64,000 bases of DNA, taken from the NCBI RefSeq assembly GCF_030651995.1, contig NZ_JAUSBN010000073.1, positions 62,001-126,000 on the forward strand. The letters are read 5' to 3'. Origin of the DNA: Reyranella sp. (GTDB taxonomy: Bacteria; Pseudomonadota; Alphaproteobacteria; Reyranellales; Reyranellaceae). Position 1 is the stretch's first letter. Every line of letters starts with the position of its first letter. This document shows, one piece after another, positions 32,980-39,417 of this stretch. Under the pieces are notes generated by a model. That model saw nothing but the letters and a program-made list of their open reading frames with translations, did no database searches and was not told where the DNA came from. Position numbers and translations under genes: made by a program.

Positions 32980-33216
32980 CGTTCGACCGTTCAAGGGCTT
33001 GTCCTCTGCTGGTGATGCTCCCCGGGCAGGCCGTTCTAGGGGCTTCGGCCGGCGAGGAAAAGCGCGACATTGTCGCCCGCTTCACGGCATGATCCCGAAA
33101 GGCGCCCGGCCTCTGCACCAGCGGCGTCCAGTTGGGGCGCGCGTGCTCGCGGGGCGGCTTGTAGCGCTTCCCATCAAGACACCGTAAAATGAGGTCGCTG
33201 ACGGGGAACAAGCACG

Positions 33217-33411
33217 ATGAACCAGCGAACGGCCGACTCGGACGATGAAGAGGCGATCGCCGCGACCGGGATCGGCGAGGCGAGGAAGCCCTATCTGCAA
33301 CCGCAGCTCGTGCGCCTCGGGACCTTGGCCGACATGACCCGGACGGTCGGATATCGCGGTTCGGCCGACGGTGGCCGCTTCCCGCAGCGATTCAGGACGG
33401 GGACTTTCTAG
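33217..33411 (+). CDS. Lasso-type RiPP precursor peptide 1
   Basis: A 64-residue precursor. The leader has the lasso-leader signature Y-x2-P-x-L-x2-LG: 'KPYLQPQLVRLGTLADMTR' at residues 24-42. In lasso precursors a Thr sits two residues before the core; here Thr43-Val44 precede a core starting at Gly45, 'GYRGSADGGRFPQRFRTGTF'. Asp51 is core position 7, able to close a seven-residue ring with the Gly amine. The tail is Arg/Phe-rich. The family assignment rests on these motifs only; no cyclase, leader protease or RRE protein is within the window. GGGGAAC precedes the ATG. Confidence 0.6.
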   Translation: MNQRTADSDDEEAIAATGIGEARKPYLQPQLVRLGTLADMTRTVGYRGSADGGRFPQRFRTGTF

Positions 33412-33448
33412 CGTACCGCGGGTGCACCTGGCGGTGATGGGGAGCGAG

Positions 33449-33640
33449 ATGGACCAGCGAATGACCGACTCCGATGAGGCAGAGCTGATCGCCACGACCG
33501 GGATCGGCGAGATGAAGAAGCCATACCTGCGGCCGCAGCTGGTCCGCCTCGGCGCGCTGGCCGACATGACGCGCAAGGTCGGCTATCGCGGTTCGGCCGA
33601 CGGAGGGCGTTTCCCCTTTGGATTCAGGACGGCGTGGTAG
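33449..33640 (+). CDS. Lasso-type RiPP precursor peptide 2
   Basis: A 63-residue paralog of the gene at 33217. ATG 33449 has GGGGAG five bases upstream. Leader 'KKPYLRPQLVRLGALADMTR' (residues 23-42), core 'GYRGSADGGRFPFGFRTAW' (45-63). The ring half (GYRGSADGG) is identical to peptide 1 while the tail differs, as expected when a ring scaffold is kept and the tail varies. The -2 residue is Lys instead of Thr, so processing might be less efficient or follow another rule. Follows gene 1 by 37 bases, likely one transcript. Confidence 0.6.
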   Translation: MDQRMTDSDEAELIATTGIGEMKKPYLRPQLVRLGALADMTRKVGYRGSADGGRFPFGFRTAW

Positions 33641-33811
33641 CGCGCCGCGGGTGCGCCTGGCGGTGGCGTCTCAACAGGTCGGCTTCGGTGAGGCCGTAAC
33701 CGCCGTACTCATCTCCTGGGACGATTCCGAAAGGCCTGCGGGCCCACGCTGACTTGTAGCACTTTCCGTGAAGACACTGTAGATTGTCCGTGCTGACGGG
33801 GAAAAGCCAGG

Positions 33812-34003
33812 ATGGACCAGCGAATTGCCGACTCGGAACAAGAAGCGGCACTTGCTGAGGCCGAGATTGGCGAGGCGAGGAAGCCTTACCTTCGACCGCA
33901 ACTCGTGCGCCTCGGCACCTGGGCCGACATGACCCGGACGATCGGTAGTACCGGCGCGGCCGACGGCGGTCGATTTCGGGGGCGGACCAGAACGGCTCGT
34001 TAG
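33812..34003 (+). CDS. Lasso-type RiPP precursor peptide 3
   Basis: A 63-residue paralog with its own duplicated leader region. Leader 'KPYLRPQLVRLGTWADMTR' (24-42), Thr43-Ile44, then core 'GSTGAADGGRFRGRTRTAR' (45-63). Gly45 and the Asp at core position 7 are kept although the ring sequence changes (STGAA for YRGSA). The tail is strongly basic. N-terminal residues differ most ('EQEAALAEAEIGEARK'). ATG 33812 follows GGGGAAAAG. All three could also be substrates of another RiPP system with an RRE; the Y-P-L-LG motif makes lasso the first choice. Confidence 0.6.
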   Translation: MDQRIADSEQEAALAEAEIGEARKPYLRPQLVRLGTWADMTRTIGSTGAADGGRFRGRTRTAR

Positions 34004-34021
34004 CGAGCTGCGGATGCGCGC

Positions 34022-34315
34022 CTAGCGGTGCTCGGGCATCGCCTTGAGCTGGTCCTTGGTCCAGCCCGTCACGGCATGGACGTTGCCATCCTCGTCGCGC
34101 ATGAAGTCGAGGTCGCCCACCGGGACGCCCACCGGCTTGGCCCCGATGCCGAGGAAGCCGCCGACATCGATCACGATCTGTACCGCAGGGCCCGAGCCAT
34201 GGAGATGGGCCACCGAGCCGATCGTTTGATCGCCAGGACCATAGATCGTGGCGTCCTCGAGGATCTCCGCGGTGAGTTCGGCGGCGGTCAGGCGGACATG
34301 CTTGCTGTGGTCCAT
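34022..34315 (-). CDS. PRC-barrel domain protein
   Basis: A 97-residue protein of PRC-barrel type: 'TAAELTAEILEDATIYGPGD' then 'TIGSVAHLHGSGPAVQIVID' and 'GFLGIGAKPVGVPVGDLDFM'. PRC-barrel proteins are small beta domains found in RNA-processing and stress proteins. The last codons lie in the 3' flank of the third precursor unit and may have been altered by that duplication. Good start at 34315 (GGAGGAGC upstream on the minus strand). Confidence 0.85.
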   Translation of the reverse strand: MDHSKHVRLTAAELTAEILEDATIYGPGDQTIGSVAHLHGSGPAVQIVIDVGGFLGIGAKPVGVPVGDLDFMRDEDGNVHAVTGWTKDQLKAMPEHR

Positions 34316-34539
34316 GGTTCGCTCCTCCTCGTTGGGATGGTGAGAACCCGTTAACCCGGCGGAGGCGCCGACGTTGCAGGCCAGATGGACTGAGCATTGC
34401 CAACTTCTGATTCCGGGCGGCGCGGCCGGCTCGACCCGCGCGGCTAGTCTCGACCGCGTGTTTCACGCTGCGATGGCTACGGTCCGGAACTCGCCTTGTC
34501 GCCGGATCGCGGGGTCACTGTCCTGATGCCGCGGATGAC

Positions 34540-34845
34540 GATCCGGTGGGGATCATGCCGATCACGCTGCCGGTCTTCCTGCCCGCGGTGGAAGCGTACG
34601 GGTGGGATCCGATCTGGTTCGGCGTCATCTTCATCATCATGATGGAGATCGGCTACATGACGCCGCCCTTCGGCTTCAACCTGTTCTACCTGAAGGCCGT
34701 GGTGCCGCCGAGCGTGACGATGAGCGACATCTACTGGTCGGTCATCCCCTACGTGCTGGTGACCTTCGTCGGCGTGCTGATCCTCATCGCCTTCCCCGAC
34801 ATCGCGCTGTACTTTCCCAACCTGTTCTTCGGCGTGTCGAAGTAG
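34540..34845 (+). pseudogene. C-terminal fragment of a TRAP transporter large permease (DctM)
   Basis: About 100 residues equal to the last quarter of DctM-type permeases: 'DPVGIMPITLPVFLPAVEAY', 'WFGVIFIIMMEIGYMTPPFGFNLFYLK', ending 'ALYFPNLFFGVSK'. A complete protein would have about 430 residues; nothing of the earlier part lies upstream, where the sequence is noncoding and then the PRC-barrel gene. No DctP or DctQ gene is near. It is the scar of a deletion that probably joined the region before 34540 to the old dctM end. Confidence 0.8.
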
Positions 34846-34887
34846 CAGTCTGCGTACCCGCCCTTCGGGACCAGGGGAGGGAAGTCG

Positions 34888-36687
34888 ATGGGATTGAAGC
34901 GCAAGGTCAGCGTCTTCCTGTTCGCGGTCATGCTGGCCGTGAGCCTGGGCGCGACGGTCGTGGCCTCGTTGGCCATGTACCGGCTGGTCTCGGAGAAGCA
35001 GGATGCCGAGATCCACAGGCTGGAGAGCAGCCTGTCCGATCGTTTCGCCGTCTTCGAGACGCTGCTGCGCTCGCAGCACGTGGAAATCGTCGCGCACATG
35101 GAGAAGGTCCTGCCGCAGATCGCGGCGGAGCTCGACAGGACCGGCCGCGCCCCCGGGGACCTCACCGTGGCCGACCTCGATGCGCTCACCCGCAAGTATG
35201 GCGTGCAGCACATCTATTTCGTCGATCGCGCGCACAGGGTCTTTCAGACCAATCTCGCCAGCGACATGAACCTGACCTTCCCCGAGAGCAGCTTCACGCG
35301 CTTCCTCGATACGGTCTATAGCTCGAACAGAGTGATGAGCGACGGCATCGACCTGTCCAGCCTGACCGGCACGCTGCGCACCTACAGTTACTTCGGGCCC
35401 GAGGGGAAGGACTACATCATCGAGACCTCGACCGAGGTGCGCGCCAGCCTGGCGGAGGGAAACTTCGGCTGGATGGGCGCCTACTTCTTCCAGGACCTGT
35501 TCGCCGATGCGCTGCGCTCCAATCCCTACCTGAAGGAGGTCGACCTCTACCTGGTCACGCCCGCCGGCGCCTGGTCGCTGCTGCACATCGGCAAGAAGCT
35601 CGAGCCCGCGCTGGTCGAGCGCCTGATGAAGGTACGCCGCGAGGAAGTCCCCGCCGGCGACGGCCGCTATCTCACGGTCTACAGCGGCGAGGAGACCCGG
35701 GCGGGGACGCAGGCCGGTCACCCGGTCACCTCGAAGTTCGTCATCCGCAAGATCACCTACGACACGGGCCTGGCACGCGAGGCGGTCCTGCATGTGCTGC
35801 TGAGTTCGATCATCGTGCTGGCCGTCATGCTGCCGATCGTGTTCTGGATCGCCTCGCGCCTCCTGCAGAGGCAGCTTCTCGATCCCCTGTTCAGCCTGCG
35901 CGGCGAGGCGGGCGCCATTGCCGAGGGCGATCTAGATCAGGCCATCGCCAACACCAACCGCATCGACGAGATCGGCCAGCTCGCCAAGAGCTTCGCCTCC
36001 ATGCGCGATGCAGTGCGCCGGACGATCCTCGACCTCAAACATACGAATGTGTCGATCGAGCGCTTCGTGCCGCAGGCCTTCCTGTCGATCGTCGGCAAGC
36101 CGTCGGTCGCAGATGTCGAGTTGGGGGACAACAAGCGCCGGACCATGAGCATCCTGTTCTCCGACATTCGTGGTTTCACCACCCTGTCGGAACAGATGAG
36201 CCCGGACGAGACCTTCGCGTTCATCAACACCTATCTCGAGCGCATGGGTCCGGTGATCCGTGACCACCACGGTTTCATCGACAAGTATATCGGTGACGCC
36301 ATCATGGCGTTGTTCGCCAATGCCGACGATGCATTGCAGGCCGGGCTCGCGATGCTGGCCGCCCTCGAAGGCTTCAATGCCGAACGGCGGGCCACCGGCC
36401 TGCCGCCGATCGAGATCGGCATCGGCATCAATACCGGCTCGCTCATGCTGGGCACGATCGGCGAGAAGCATCGCATGGACGGGACCGTCATATCCGACGC
36501 CGTGAACCTGGCGGCGCGGATCGAGGGTCTCACCAAGGACTATGCCGCGCCGATGCTGATTTCCGAATTCACCTACCGGGAGCTCTCCAACCCCGAGGCC
36601 AGCGCCATCCGGCCGGTCGACGTCGTCGTCGTGAAGGGCAAGACCCGGCCTGTCGCCATCTACGCCGTGAGCCCGTCCCCGGCGTAA
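34888..36687 (+). CDS. Membrane-bound class III adenylate cyclase with sensor and HAMP domains
   Basis: A 599-residue cyclase. Order: TM helix 1 (about 8-30), periplasmic sensor (about 31-300), TM helix 2 ('VLHVLLSSIIVLAVMLPIVFWIA', about 302-325), HAMP ('LLDPLFSLRGEAGAIAEGDLD'), linker, and the catalytic domain from about 400. There the metal Asp are in 'ILFSDIRGFTTLSEQM' and 'FIDKYIGDAIMALF', and 'MDGTVISDAVNLAARIEGL' provides the transition-state Asn and Arg. The Lys in FIDKY indicates ATP specificity. It makes cAMP in response to an outside signal. SD AGGGGAGGG before 34888. Confidence 0.92.
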   Translation: MGLKRKVSVFLFAVMLAVSLGATVVASLAMYRLVSEKQDAEIHRLESSLSDRFAVFETLLRSQHVEIVAHMEKVLPQIAAELDRTGRAPGDLTVADLDALTRKYGVQHIYFVDRAHRVFQTNLASDMNLTFPESSFTRFLDTVYSSNRVMSDGIDLSSLTGTLRTYSYFGPEGKDYIIETSTEVRASLAEGNFGWMGAYFFQDLFADALRSNPYLKEVDLYLVTPAGAWSLLHIGKKLEPALVERLMKVRREEVPAGDGRYLTVYSGEETRAGTQAGHPVTSKFVIRKITYDTGLAREAVLHVLLSSIIVLAVMLPIVFWIASRLLQRQLLDPLFSLRGEAGAIAEGDLDQAIANTNRIDEIGQLAKSFASMRDAVRRTILDLKHTNVSIERFVPQAFLSIVGKPSVADVELGDNKRRTMSILFSDIRGFTTLSEQMSPDETFAFINTYLERMGPVIRDHHGFIDKYIGDAIMALFANADDALQAGLAMLAALEGFNAERRATGLPPIEIGIGINTGSLMLGTIGEKHRMDGTVISDAVNLAARIEGLTKDYAAPMLISEFTYRELSNPEASAIRPVDVVVVKGKTRPVAIYAVSPSPA

Positions 36688-36690
36688 GGT

Positions 36691-37074
36691 TCAGGCAAAG
36701 TCGTCCGGCGTGAGCTCGATCGTCCGGCCGTGGGGCGTGCGATCCGCGGCATGGTCCCAGGCTTGATAGTAGCGGTCGAGCGTCTCCGGCGAGGCGATGC
36801 CCTTCCGTGCCACCAGCCGTTCGAGCGTCGCGAGCCAGTGGCGGTAGTAGGTCGTGCCGTCGTCGGGGTCGCCCTGGGCGATGGCGGCCTTGATCTGGGC
36901 GCCGAGTTCGTCGGCCCATTCGTTCCACGAGAACACGCCGCGCTGCTGCAGCGTCAGCGCCATGGCGAAAGCCTGCGCCTGCCACGGCTCGGCGAAGATC
37001 GGCGCCTCGCCGGCGCAGGGGATGCCCGGTACCGTTTCCAGGGCCGCGCGAACCGCCTCGATCTCCGACGCCAC
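36691..37074 (-). CDS. Nitrile hydratase accessory (activator) protein
   Basis: A 127-residue protein of the P14K/NhaK-like activator family that loads cobalt into nitrile hydratase. Hallmarks are 'GEAPIFAEPWQAQAFAMALTLQ', 'GVFSWNEWADELGAQI', 'YYRHWLATLERLVARKG' and 'YYQAWDHAADRTPHG'. Its GTG start overlaps the TAG stop of the beta-subunit gene (TAGTG), so translation is coupled. It is similar in fold to the beta subunit's N-terminal part. Third gene of the operon. Confidence 0.93.
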   Translation of the reverse strand: MASEIEAVRAALETVPGIPCAGEAPIFAEPWQAQAFAMALTLQQRGVFSWNEWADELGAQIKAAIAQGDPDDGTTYYRHWLATLERLVARKGIASPETLDRYYQAWDHAADRTPHGRTIELTPDDFA

Positions 37075-38383: not shown

Positions 38384-38592
38384 TGCTTTCCCCGATCGCC
38401 TGCGCGTGGTCTGCAGACTAGTGCATTCCGCGTCAGCACAACAATGCCCGGTCCGACGGTGCGCGCGCTCCGCCTTCGCGCCGGCGTCGACCGATGCCTG
38501 ATCCTGGCATAGAACGGGGCCAGAAAATTCGCCGGCGGATCGTCCATGGTGGGACATGGCACGAAGTCGATGCCGGCTTGGGTGAGTGGAAT

Positions 38593-39417
38593 ATGACGGC
38601 AGGCAAGCCGGACAGGGAATATTTTCGGCGGGCACGGGCGAGCAGACGTCCGTCGCACGACCCGTCGCGGCAGGCGGGCGGGCCGCGCTGGATGATGGTG
38701 GCCGTCTCGCTGCTGGTGGTGCTGGCGCTTTCCGTCTACCTGCCCTCGCGGGTTCTGAGCCTGGGCGTGGATCACGTGACGACGACGGCCGAGCACCGGA
38801 ACGTCGATCTGCCGGACGGGTCGCTCGTCGAACTGGGCGCCGCCAGCGGCCTCGATGTGCAATTCAGCGATTCCGACCGGCTGGTGAAGCTCCGCTCGGG
38901 AGAAGCCTTCTTCAACGTGAAGTCCGGCGACGCGCGACCCTTCACGGTGAAGGCCGGTGGCGTGTCGGTCGTCGTCACCGGAACGGCCTTCAACGTCCGG
39001 CTCGCCGACGAGACGGTCACCGTCGCAGTCGAGAAGGGATCGGTCGAGGTCCGGATGCCACCGGTGGAAACCGCGCCGGGAGAGATGGAACCGGTGCTGA
39101 GGCAGGTGCAGGCCGGCGAGCAGCTCGTGGCCCGGGCCGACGGAACGATCGAACAGGGCCCTGTTCCCGCTGCCGAGGCGGGGGCGTGGCGACGTCACAG
39201 CCTGCACGTCGATGGGGCGACCGTCGGCGAGGCGATCGCCCATCTGCGCCGCTACCATGGCGGCTGGATCGTCGTGACCGACGGCACTCTCCTGCGCCAG
39301 CGCCTCTCCGGCTTCTACGACCTGCGCGATCCGGTGGCGTCGCTGCGCGCAGTGGTCGGGCCGTTCGGCGCCCAGGTGCGCCCGATCTCGGTGCTGATCA
39401 TCGTCTCGGCCCCCTGA
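38593..39417 (+). CDS. FecR-like protein without usual N-terminal domain or partners
   Basis: A 274-residue envelope protein. After a basic cytoplasmic tail there is one membrane helix ('[20 protein letters not shown]'), then the FecR domain ('[20 protein letters not shown]', '[20 protein letters not shown]', '[12 protein letters not shown]') and a C-terminal secretin-like/DUF4974 part. FecR proteins pass a TonB-receptor signal to an ECF sigma factor, but the N-terminal sigma-binding domain (DUF4880) is not visible, and no sigma factor or receptor lies nearby. Start uncertain: frame is open back to 38494. Confidence 0.75.

Follow-up and report, generated by a model that had tools for sequence, protein, structure and literature searches.

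A lasso-peptide precursor is usually encoded beside the enzymes that mature it. The question raised by this locus is what becomes of precursors that stand alone. The window, a stretch of 64,000 nucleotides from a Reyranella genome of 5.5 Mb in 92 contigs, carries three short tandem genes whose products resemble lasso precursors, and the original prediction placed no maturation genes near them. We asked whether the three genes are lasso precursors, where their core peptides start and which enzymes could process them.

A tandem array of three precursor genes

The three genes were confirmed as paralogous ORFs of 63-64 residues, all on the plus strand (Table 1). Identity to gene 1 is 75% for gene 2 and 68% for gene 3, and the peptides share a leader, Y-x2-P-x-L-x3-G-x5-T, followed by a core with a constant G-x2-D. 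All three have a YxxPx[L] leader with Thr at -2. Among stop-to-stop frames of at least 40 codons, the leader motif occurred at these three places only in the window, against a mean of 0 matches in 50 first-order Markov windows. The duplication of a unit of gene plus leader, as originally predicted, was also borne out, and this unit takes in a further 59 bp, found ahead of both gene 1 and gene 3. Both 59-bp segments contain CTTGTAGCNCTTNCC and may represent a promoter; no sigma-70-type site was found in 33000-34100.

Table 1. Positions of the precursor genes, predicted cores and repeated upstream segments in the window
Feature	Position	Strand	Description
Precursor gene 1	33217..33411	+	64 aa; leader residues 1-42; YxxPxLxxxGx5T from 33292
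Gene 1 predicted core	from 33343	+	TVGYRGSADGGRFPQRFRTGTF, Asp9; 0 nonsynonymous changes in 3/3 species pairs
Precursor gene 2	33449..33640	+	63 aa; YxxPxLxxxGx5T from 33524
Gene 2 predicted core	from 33575	+	KVGYRGSADGGRFPFGFRTAW, Asp9; 0 nonsynonymous changes in 3/3 species pairs
Precursor gene 3	33812..34003	+	63 aa; YxxPxLxxxGx5T from 33887
Gene 3 predicted core	from 33938	+	TIGSTGAADGGRFRGRTRTAR, Asp9; core differs among species
59-bp segment 5' of gene 1	33158..33216	+	copy also before gene 3; putative promoter region
59-bp segment 5' of gene 3	33753..33811	+	copy of the segment before gene 1

The NCBIfam lasso precursor models scored peptides 1 and 2 at 13.4 and 14.1 bits (cut-offs 19 and 33, respectively), while peptide 3 had no lasso match, its sole listed match being an unrelated family. 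The lasso_leader_L3 model matched 18 of 20 family members at E≤1, with a best value of 1.2e-6. Judged from their sequences, the window peptides are real lasso-type precursors. This assignment is further supported by lasso machinery in the genome and by the same split between precursors and enzymes in related genomes, both described below.

The surroundings of the array

Profile searches of the genome with Transglut_core3 (E≤1), Asn_synthase (E≤0.01) and PqqD (E≤1) returned no match on C58, the contig of the window, in agreement with the predicted lack of maturation genes in cis. The usual co-clustering of enzymes with their precursor, which is not strictly required, is therefore not seen on this contig. 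The main ORFs between about 27.7 and 40 kb matched Pfam families for NhaA, DJ-1/PfpI, adenylate cyclase, nitrile hydratase subunits, FecR and HSP20; of the others in this region, one weakly resembled GDSL proteins, with a score under the cut-off, and three matched no family. The Pfam scan revealed no RiPP gene among these main ORFs, and the rest of the window was covered for maturation genes by the genome-wide profile searches alone. FecR-type regulation genes occur in astexin-type lasso clusters. The FecR gene (38494-39417) was set aside as a candidate for lasso regulation because it has no partner gene.

Just downstream of the array, about 2.6 kb of the window (34058-36697) is absent at the syntenic site of two related genomes, G027 and G034. 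This segment holds an adenylate cyclase and, by eye, a PRC-barrel-like ORF and a truncated TRAP-transporter-like fragment (34546-34845).

Maturation genes elsewhere in the genome

A cyclase, a B2 protease and an RRE, the enzymes expected of a lasso pathway, were all present elsewhere in the genome. Contig C26 has a same-strand run of genes for a cyclase (LasC), a discrete B1, a precursor and a nucleotidyltransferase, and the start of C34 carries B2 and an HprK-like kinase. The B2 matched NF033537 (lasso_biosyn_B2) at 82.9 bits (cut-off 33) and contains CLSSA and HAWL motifs. The B1 matched Pfam PqqD at 60.1 bits (cut-off 23.4); its top NCBIfam match, lasso_PqqD_Bac, scored 55.7, under the cut-off of 80. 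C21 carries a second cyclase (LasC2) and a precursor, next to a B1 with an apparently broken frame, and the 18 kb fetched yielded no B2. Pfam Asn_synthase reached 78.3 bits (cut-off 21) in this genome, and the C26 and C21 cyclases both exceeded the Pfam cut-off, with a lasso cyclase model as top NCBIfam match, under its 525-bit cut-off. The kinase scored 32.8 against Pfam Hpr_kinase_C, just under the cut-off of 33.3.

Together with a lone precursor on C90 (within 16 kb fetched), the genome thus has six precursors: the array of three and one each on C21, C26 and C90. Matches on C42 (E 0.19), C76 (E 2.5) and C89 (E 3.2) were too weak and were dropped as further precursors. Additional matches over cut-off were found for PqqD on C69 and for Asn_synthase on C25 and C3, and a scan of the C69 and C3 stretches with the precursor profile gave no match.

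The ends of C34 and C26 appear to belong together. B2 lies directly before the cyclase in G008, G027, G030 and G034. Right after the B2 stop at the C34 edge is a transposase-like start (by eye), a transposase end (rve_3) lies just before the cyclase start at the C26 edge, and CTAG is seen by eye at both junctions. Because of this gene order in relatives and the transposase pieces and CTAG at the edges, C34 and C26 are probably one cluster that was split by an insertion element and that we joined by inference. The element, presumably IS481-like, occupies L024:7373-7628 and L027:1-142. By eye, its transposase stop overlaps the GTG start of the cyclase, an overlap that the B2 stop shows in G034 and G008; translational coupling to the cyclase may therefore have been kept despite the insertion.

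Directly upstream of the second cyclase on C21 is a protein with AMP-binding, weak carrier and thioesterase domains (L025:3831-6548). The AMP-binding protein is found 5' of the second cyclase in four loci (L025, L075, L085 and L139) at 72-77% identity over nearly the full length; L075 and L085 each contain an additional, partial copy. Such an association of a nonribosomal-type module with a lasso cluster appears unusual. These second clusters keep the cyclase and the precursor, and their B1 looks broken in G000 and G034 and open in G015 and G397.

Core start and ring size

The original prediction placed Gly at the start of the core and Asp at position 7, which would give a seven-residue ring. 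A precursor profile built from the six peptides of this genome matched 52 ORFs in the fetched loci, window array excluded. The full leader pattern was present in 49 of these; the other three were L081 (Pro of YxxP changed), L078 (degenerate) and L069 (decayed copy). Thr is present in all 49 by construction, as it is part of the selection pattern, and by eye it is also kept in two of the three left-out ORFs (L081 and L078). The residue following Thr-x is Ser in 18, Ala in 14, Thr in 13 and Lys in 4. With Thr set at -2, Asp falls at position 9 in 45 of the 49 precursors and at 10 in four, and at 9 in all three array peptides. An alignment of 20 members, chosen as motif-bearing, has invariant Y, P, L, G, T, core G and D.

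For a related cluster, the available part of the published account puts YxxPxL at -17 to -12, with Y at -17 and Thr(-2) as the rule (PMC10368454). In our family Y lies at -17 when counted from the Thr and at -19 when counted from the Gly. Since the leader register has Y at -17 and Thr at -2, Asp takes core position 9, and the core probably starts two residues upstream of the Gly, with Thr, Lys and Thr as first residues of the three peptides and a nine-residue ring. With this shift the apparent anomaly of a Lys at -2 vanishes: the description of Thr at -2 in two peptides and Lys in one is literally right relative to the Gly, but the Gly is not the best-supported start. Thr or Lys is a less usual ring nucleophile than Gly.

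A core running from Gly1 to Asp7, likewise matured in trans and with Lys or Thr at -2, appears unlikely. It accounts for the constancy of Gly and Asp across the array, and going by the titles of the papers on xanthomonins and huascopeptin, seven-residue rings exist, which also tempers the original caution that such a ring would be small for a lasso peptide. Unlike in those peptides, the leader register here favors Asp9. The Gly is missing in 7 of the 49 motif-bearing precursors, the residue at -2 would be Ser, Ala, Thr or Lys rather than mostly Thr, and Y would lie at -19 instead of the -17 given in the available text for lasso leaders (PMC10368454). A ring closed at Asp9 falls within the size of 7-9 residues quoted for lasso peptides (PMC9266682, in the part available). 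The four Asp10 precursors lie just beyond this quoted range, and engineered fusilassin is described, in the accessible text, as tolerating rings of 7-10 (PMC13352647).

Distribution across the genus

We next compared the presence of precursors and machinery in 37 genomes of the genus. Both were found in 23 genomes, only precursors in two, only machinery in one and neither in 11 (Fisher p 1e-6, with no kinship correction). The exceptions count against maturation in trans: no cyclase, B1 or B2 was found in precursor-bearing G017 (77% complete) and G021 (93% complete), and G018 (100% complete) has the machinery without a precursor.

Clusters of cyclase, B1 and nucleotidyltransferase on one contig numbered 27, five of which have no adjoining precursor (G022, G027, G034 C83, G035 and G061). 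All five genomes carry precursors elsewhere. A pattern scan of the five loci, run without a positive control, gave six loose matches and none with the full motif. G022 consists of a single contig, where the cluster lies at 13.6-19.1 kb and precursors at 7.0 kb, 2.694 Mb and 2.854 Mb, distances of 8 kb, 2.68 Mb and 2.84 Mb. The leader of the resident precursor in G003 no longer has its G and Thr. Two further clusters, both in G397, each have a resident precursor.

The fetched loci hold 59 precursors, not counting the three of the window array, two matches in G061 and those on G062 C307 and G063 C219; 28 of the 59 lie within 3 kb of a cyclase, B1 or B2 match and 31 farther away. Of these 31, 26 are on contigs without such a match (some of them short, so that linkage is possible case by case), three are in G022 and two lie at 3.3-3.6 kb (G026). 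G397, assembled into six contigs, adds four precursors: two beside the first cluster (2.06 Mb on C1, a contig of 3.80 Mb), one beside the second (3.71 Mb) and a solo precursor at 10.8 kb on that contig.

B2 was present in 26 of 41 genomes, with exactly one in each (E≤1e-4). In G005, G028 and G036, B2 and the cluster lie on separate contigs. Since G000, G015 and G034 have two to three cyclases, a single B2 per genome implies that B2 is shared, provided that it is used in all the pathways. In relatives, as in our genome, with its B1, B2 and two cyclases on contigs other than C58, enzymes and precursors are split, in line with maturation in trans, one of the two options of the original prediction.

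A class-wide search with A3, in which the best 15 candidates per genome were scored in most genomes, found matches at E≤1e-5 in at least 3 of 385 genomes, all of this genus, to which four of the genomes listed belong. A search with A2 gave one genome of another family, with a short match (G052, E 5e-5, 21 positions).

Selection on cores and enzymes

The triple array is syntenic in G027 and G034. Across the three genomes the cores of genes 1 and 2 show no amino-acid change, with 0 nonsynonymous versus 1-5 synonymous changes per pair. The gene 3 core is less constrained (dN/dS of about 0.6 in two pairs and 0.11 in one), as are the resident precursors of the second clusters. In the core of the C90 type, where nonsynonymous sites are about four times more numerous than synonymous ones, we counted 0 nonsynonymous versus 8 synonymous changes between G034 and G017, and 3 versus 3 and 3 versus 7 against G000. 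By these counts, the cores of array genes 1 and 2 and of the C90-type solo precursors are under purifying selection.

Between G027 and G034, dN/dS was 0.22 for LasC, 0.18 for HprK, 0.33 for the nucleotidyltransferase, 0.36 for B2 and 0.42 for B1, the least constrained enzyme, whose match in G034 lacks the first 11 residues. The resident precursor is cut to the same short remnant in both genomes, a shared deletion that could have spread by recombination. Other explanations are possible for the empty clusters of these two genomes, as G034 holds another cluster that includes a precursor and the completeness of G027 is 84%.

In G008, the site syntenic to the array holds one intact copy and, next to it, a decayed second one (L069:8240-8398), and the size of the array therefore differs between species.

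These data bear on the idea that solo precursors remained after their clusters were lost and stay unmatured. Such remnants would fit the lack of enzymes on C58, the decayed copy in G008, the fast divergence of the N-terminal parts of the array peptides and a precursor in G021 that adjoins a piece of a nucleotidyltransferase, as expected of a cluster remnant. We consider this improbable, as leftovers would not be expected to keep core proteins identical in three genomes (genes 1 and 2) or a constrained C90-type core, and the precursor-less clusters are themselves still open and constrained.

A proposed route of maturation in trans

We return to the window genes as lasso precursors matured in trans, a reading that their motifs and genomic context make likely. 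In lasso peptides generally, B1 binds the leader, B2 cuts it off, and the cyclase activates the acceptor residue and closes the ring. We infer as follows which enzyme acts on which precursor, where the leader is cut and how the ring is closed and threaded. The discrete RRE (B1, C26) would bind the YxxPxL leader, and the single B2 peptidase of the genome, at the C34 edge, would cleave C-terminal to residue -1, one past Thr(-2). An asparagine-synthetase-like cyclase, either LasC (C26) or LasC2 (C21), would then activate Asp9 and link it to the N-terminal residue exposed by the cut (Thr, Lys or Thr), with the nine-residue ring encircling the threaded tail. LasC2 may be the partner cyclase of the window precursors. 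The kinase and nucleotidyltransferase beside the enzymes may phosphorylate and glycosylate products, as the available description of pseudomycoidin has it; the C-terminal residue of the window cores is not Ser. That the product is an exported peptide acting between cells is a guess, made with low confidence.

MCGI is the start of glutamine amidotransferases. It occurs in none of 32 cyclase ORFs, whereas [SG]GG[LI]DS occurs in 30 of the 32. This speaks against another type of RiPP, one with a YxxP leader and an RRE but a ring closed in a non-lasso manner, as do the co-occurrence of B2 with the cyclase and the presence of Asp at 9 or 10 in 49 of 49 precursors. A Bacillota family, LPP, also has a YxxP leader according to the accessible part of its description (PMC13381572), but we regard such a pathway as very unlikely here.

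Relation to known systems and meaning

Extending the lasso reading to the genus, we suggest with some reservation that the lasso system of Reyranella is distributed: in each genome a single peptidase and one to three promiscuous cyclases would act in trans on dispersed and changing precursors, solo or in tandem arrays, giving nine-residue and perhaps also ten-residue rings with Thr, Ser, Ala or Lys as the first residue.

As far as the available descriptions go, the lasso clusters of paeninodin, pseudomycoidin and Bradymonas (bsf) combine a kinase and a nucleotidyltransferase as here, and share the HprK-like kinase, B2, cyclase, discrete B1, nucleotidyltransferase and YxxPxL at -17 to -12. Unlike in those clusters, precursors here are scattered and some clusters have none. 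The leader residue at -2 is kept as Thr here and is Ile in bsf, and the predicted cores here start with Ser, Ala, Thr or Lys. Lasso chemistry is already known, and so is the presence of several precursors in one cluster: in the accessible text, the caulosegnins have three precursors and one enzyme set, with rings of 8 and 9 residues (PMC13352647). Those precursors lie inside the cluster, whereas here they are unlinked and up to 2.8 Mb away (G022).

In the prochlorosins, enzymes act on the products of distant genes. The same is described, in the part available, for unclustered lanthipeptide proteases (PMC8960859). The chemistry of both differs from ours, in which precursors and sometimes B2 are unlinked. 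If the distributed system holds, as we tend to think, its layout would be the lasso counterpart of the prochlorosin strategy. Among the listed titles and abstract openings of the open-licence literature, we found no report of lasso precursors unlinked from their enzymes. What is new is the layout, in which a single set of maturation enzymes appears to serve precursors scattered over the genome, throughout the genus; to our knowledge, unlinked precursors and precursor-less clusters on one set are a new arrangement for the lasso class.

Lasso mining usually seeks precursors that adjoin the enzymes. Unlinked precursors would escape such neighbor-based mining, and some clusters would appear empty. 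If the enzymes naturally accept varied cores, they are candidate promiscuous lasso catalysts, and the assignment of enzyme to precursor becomes directly testable.
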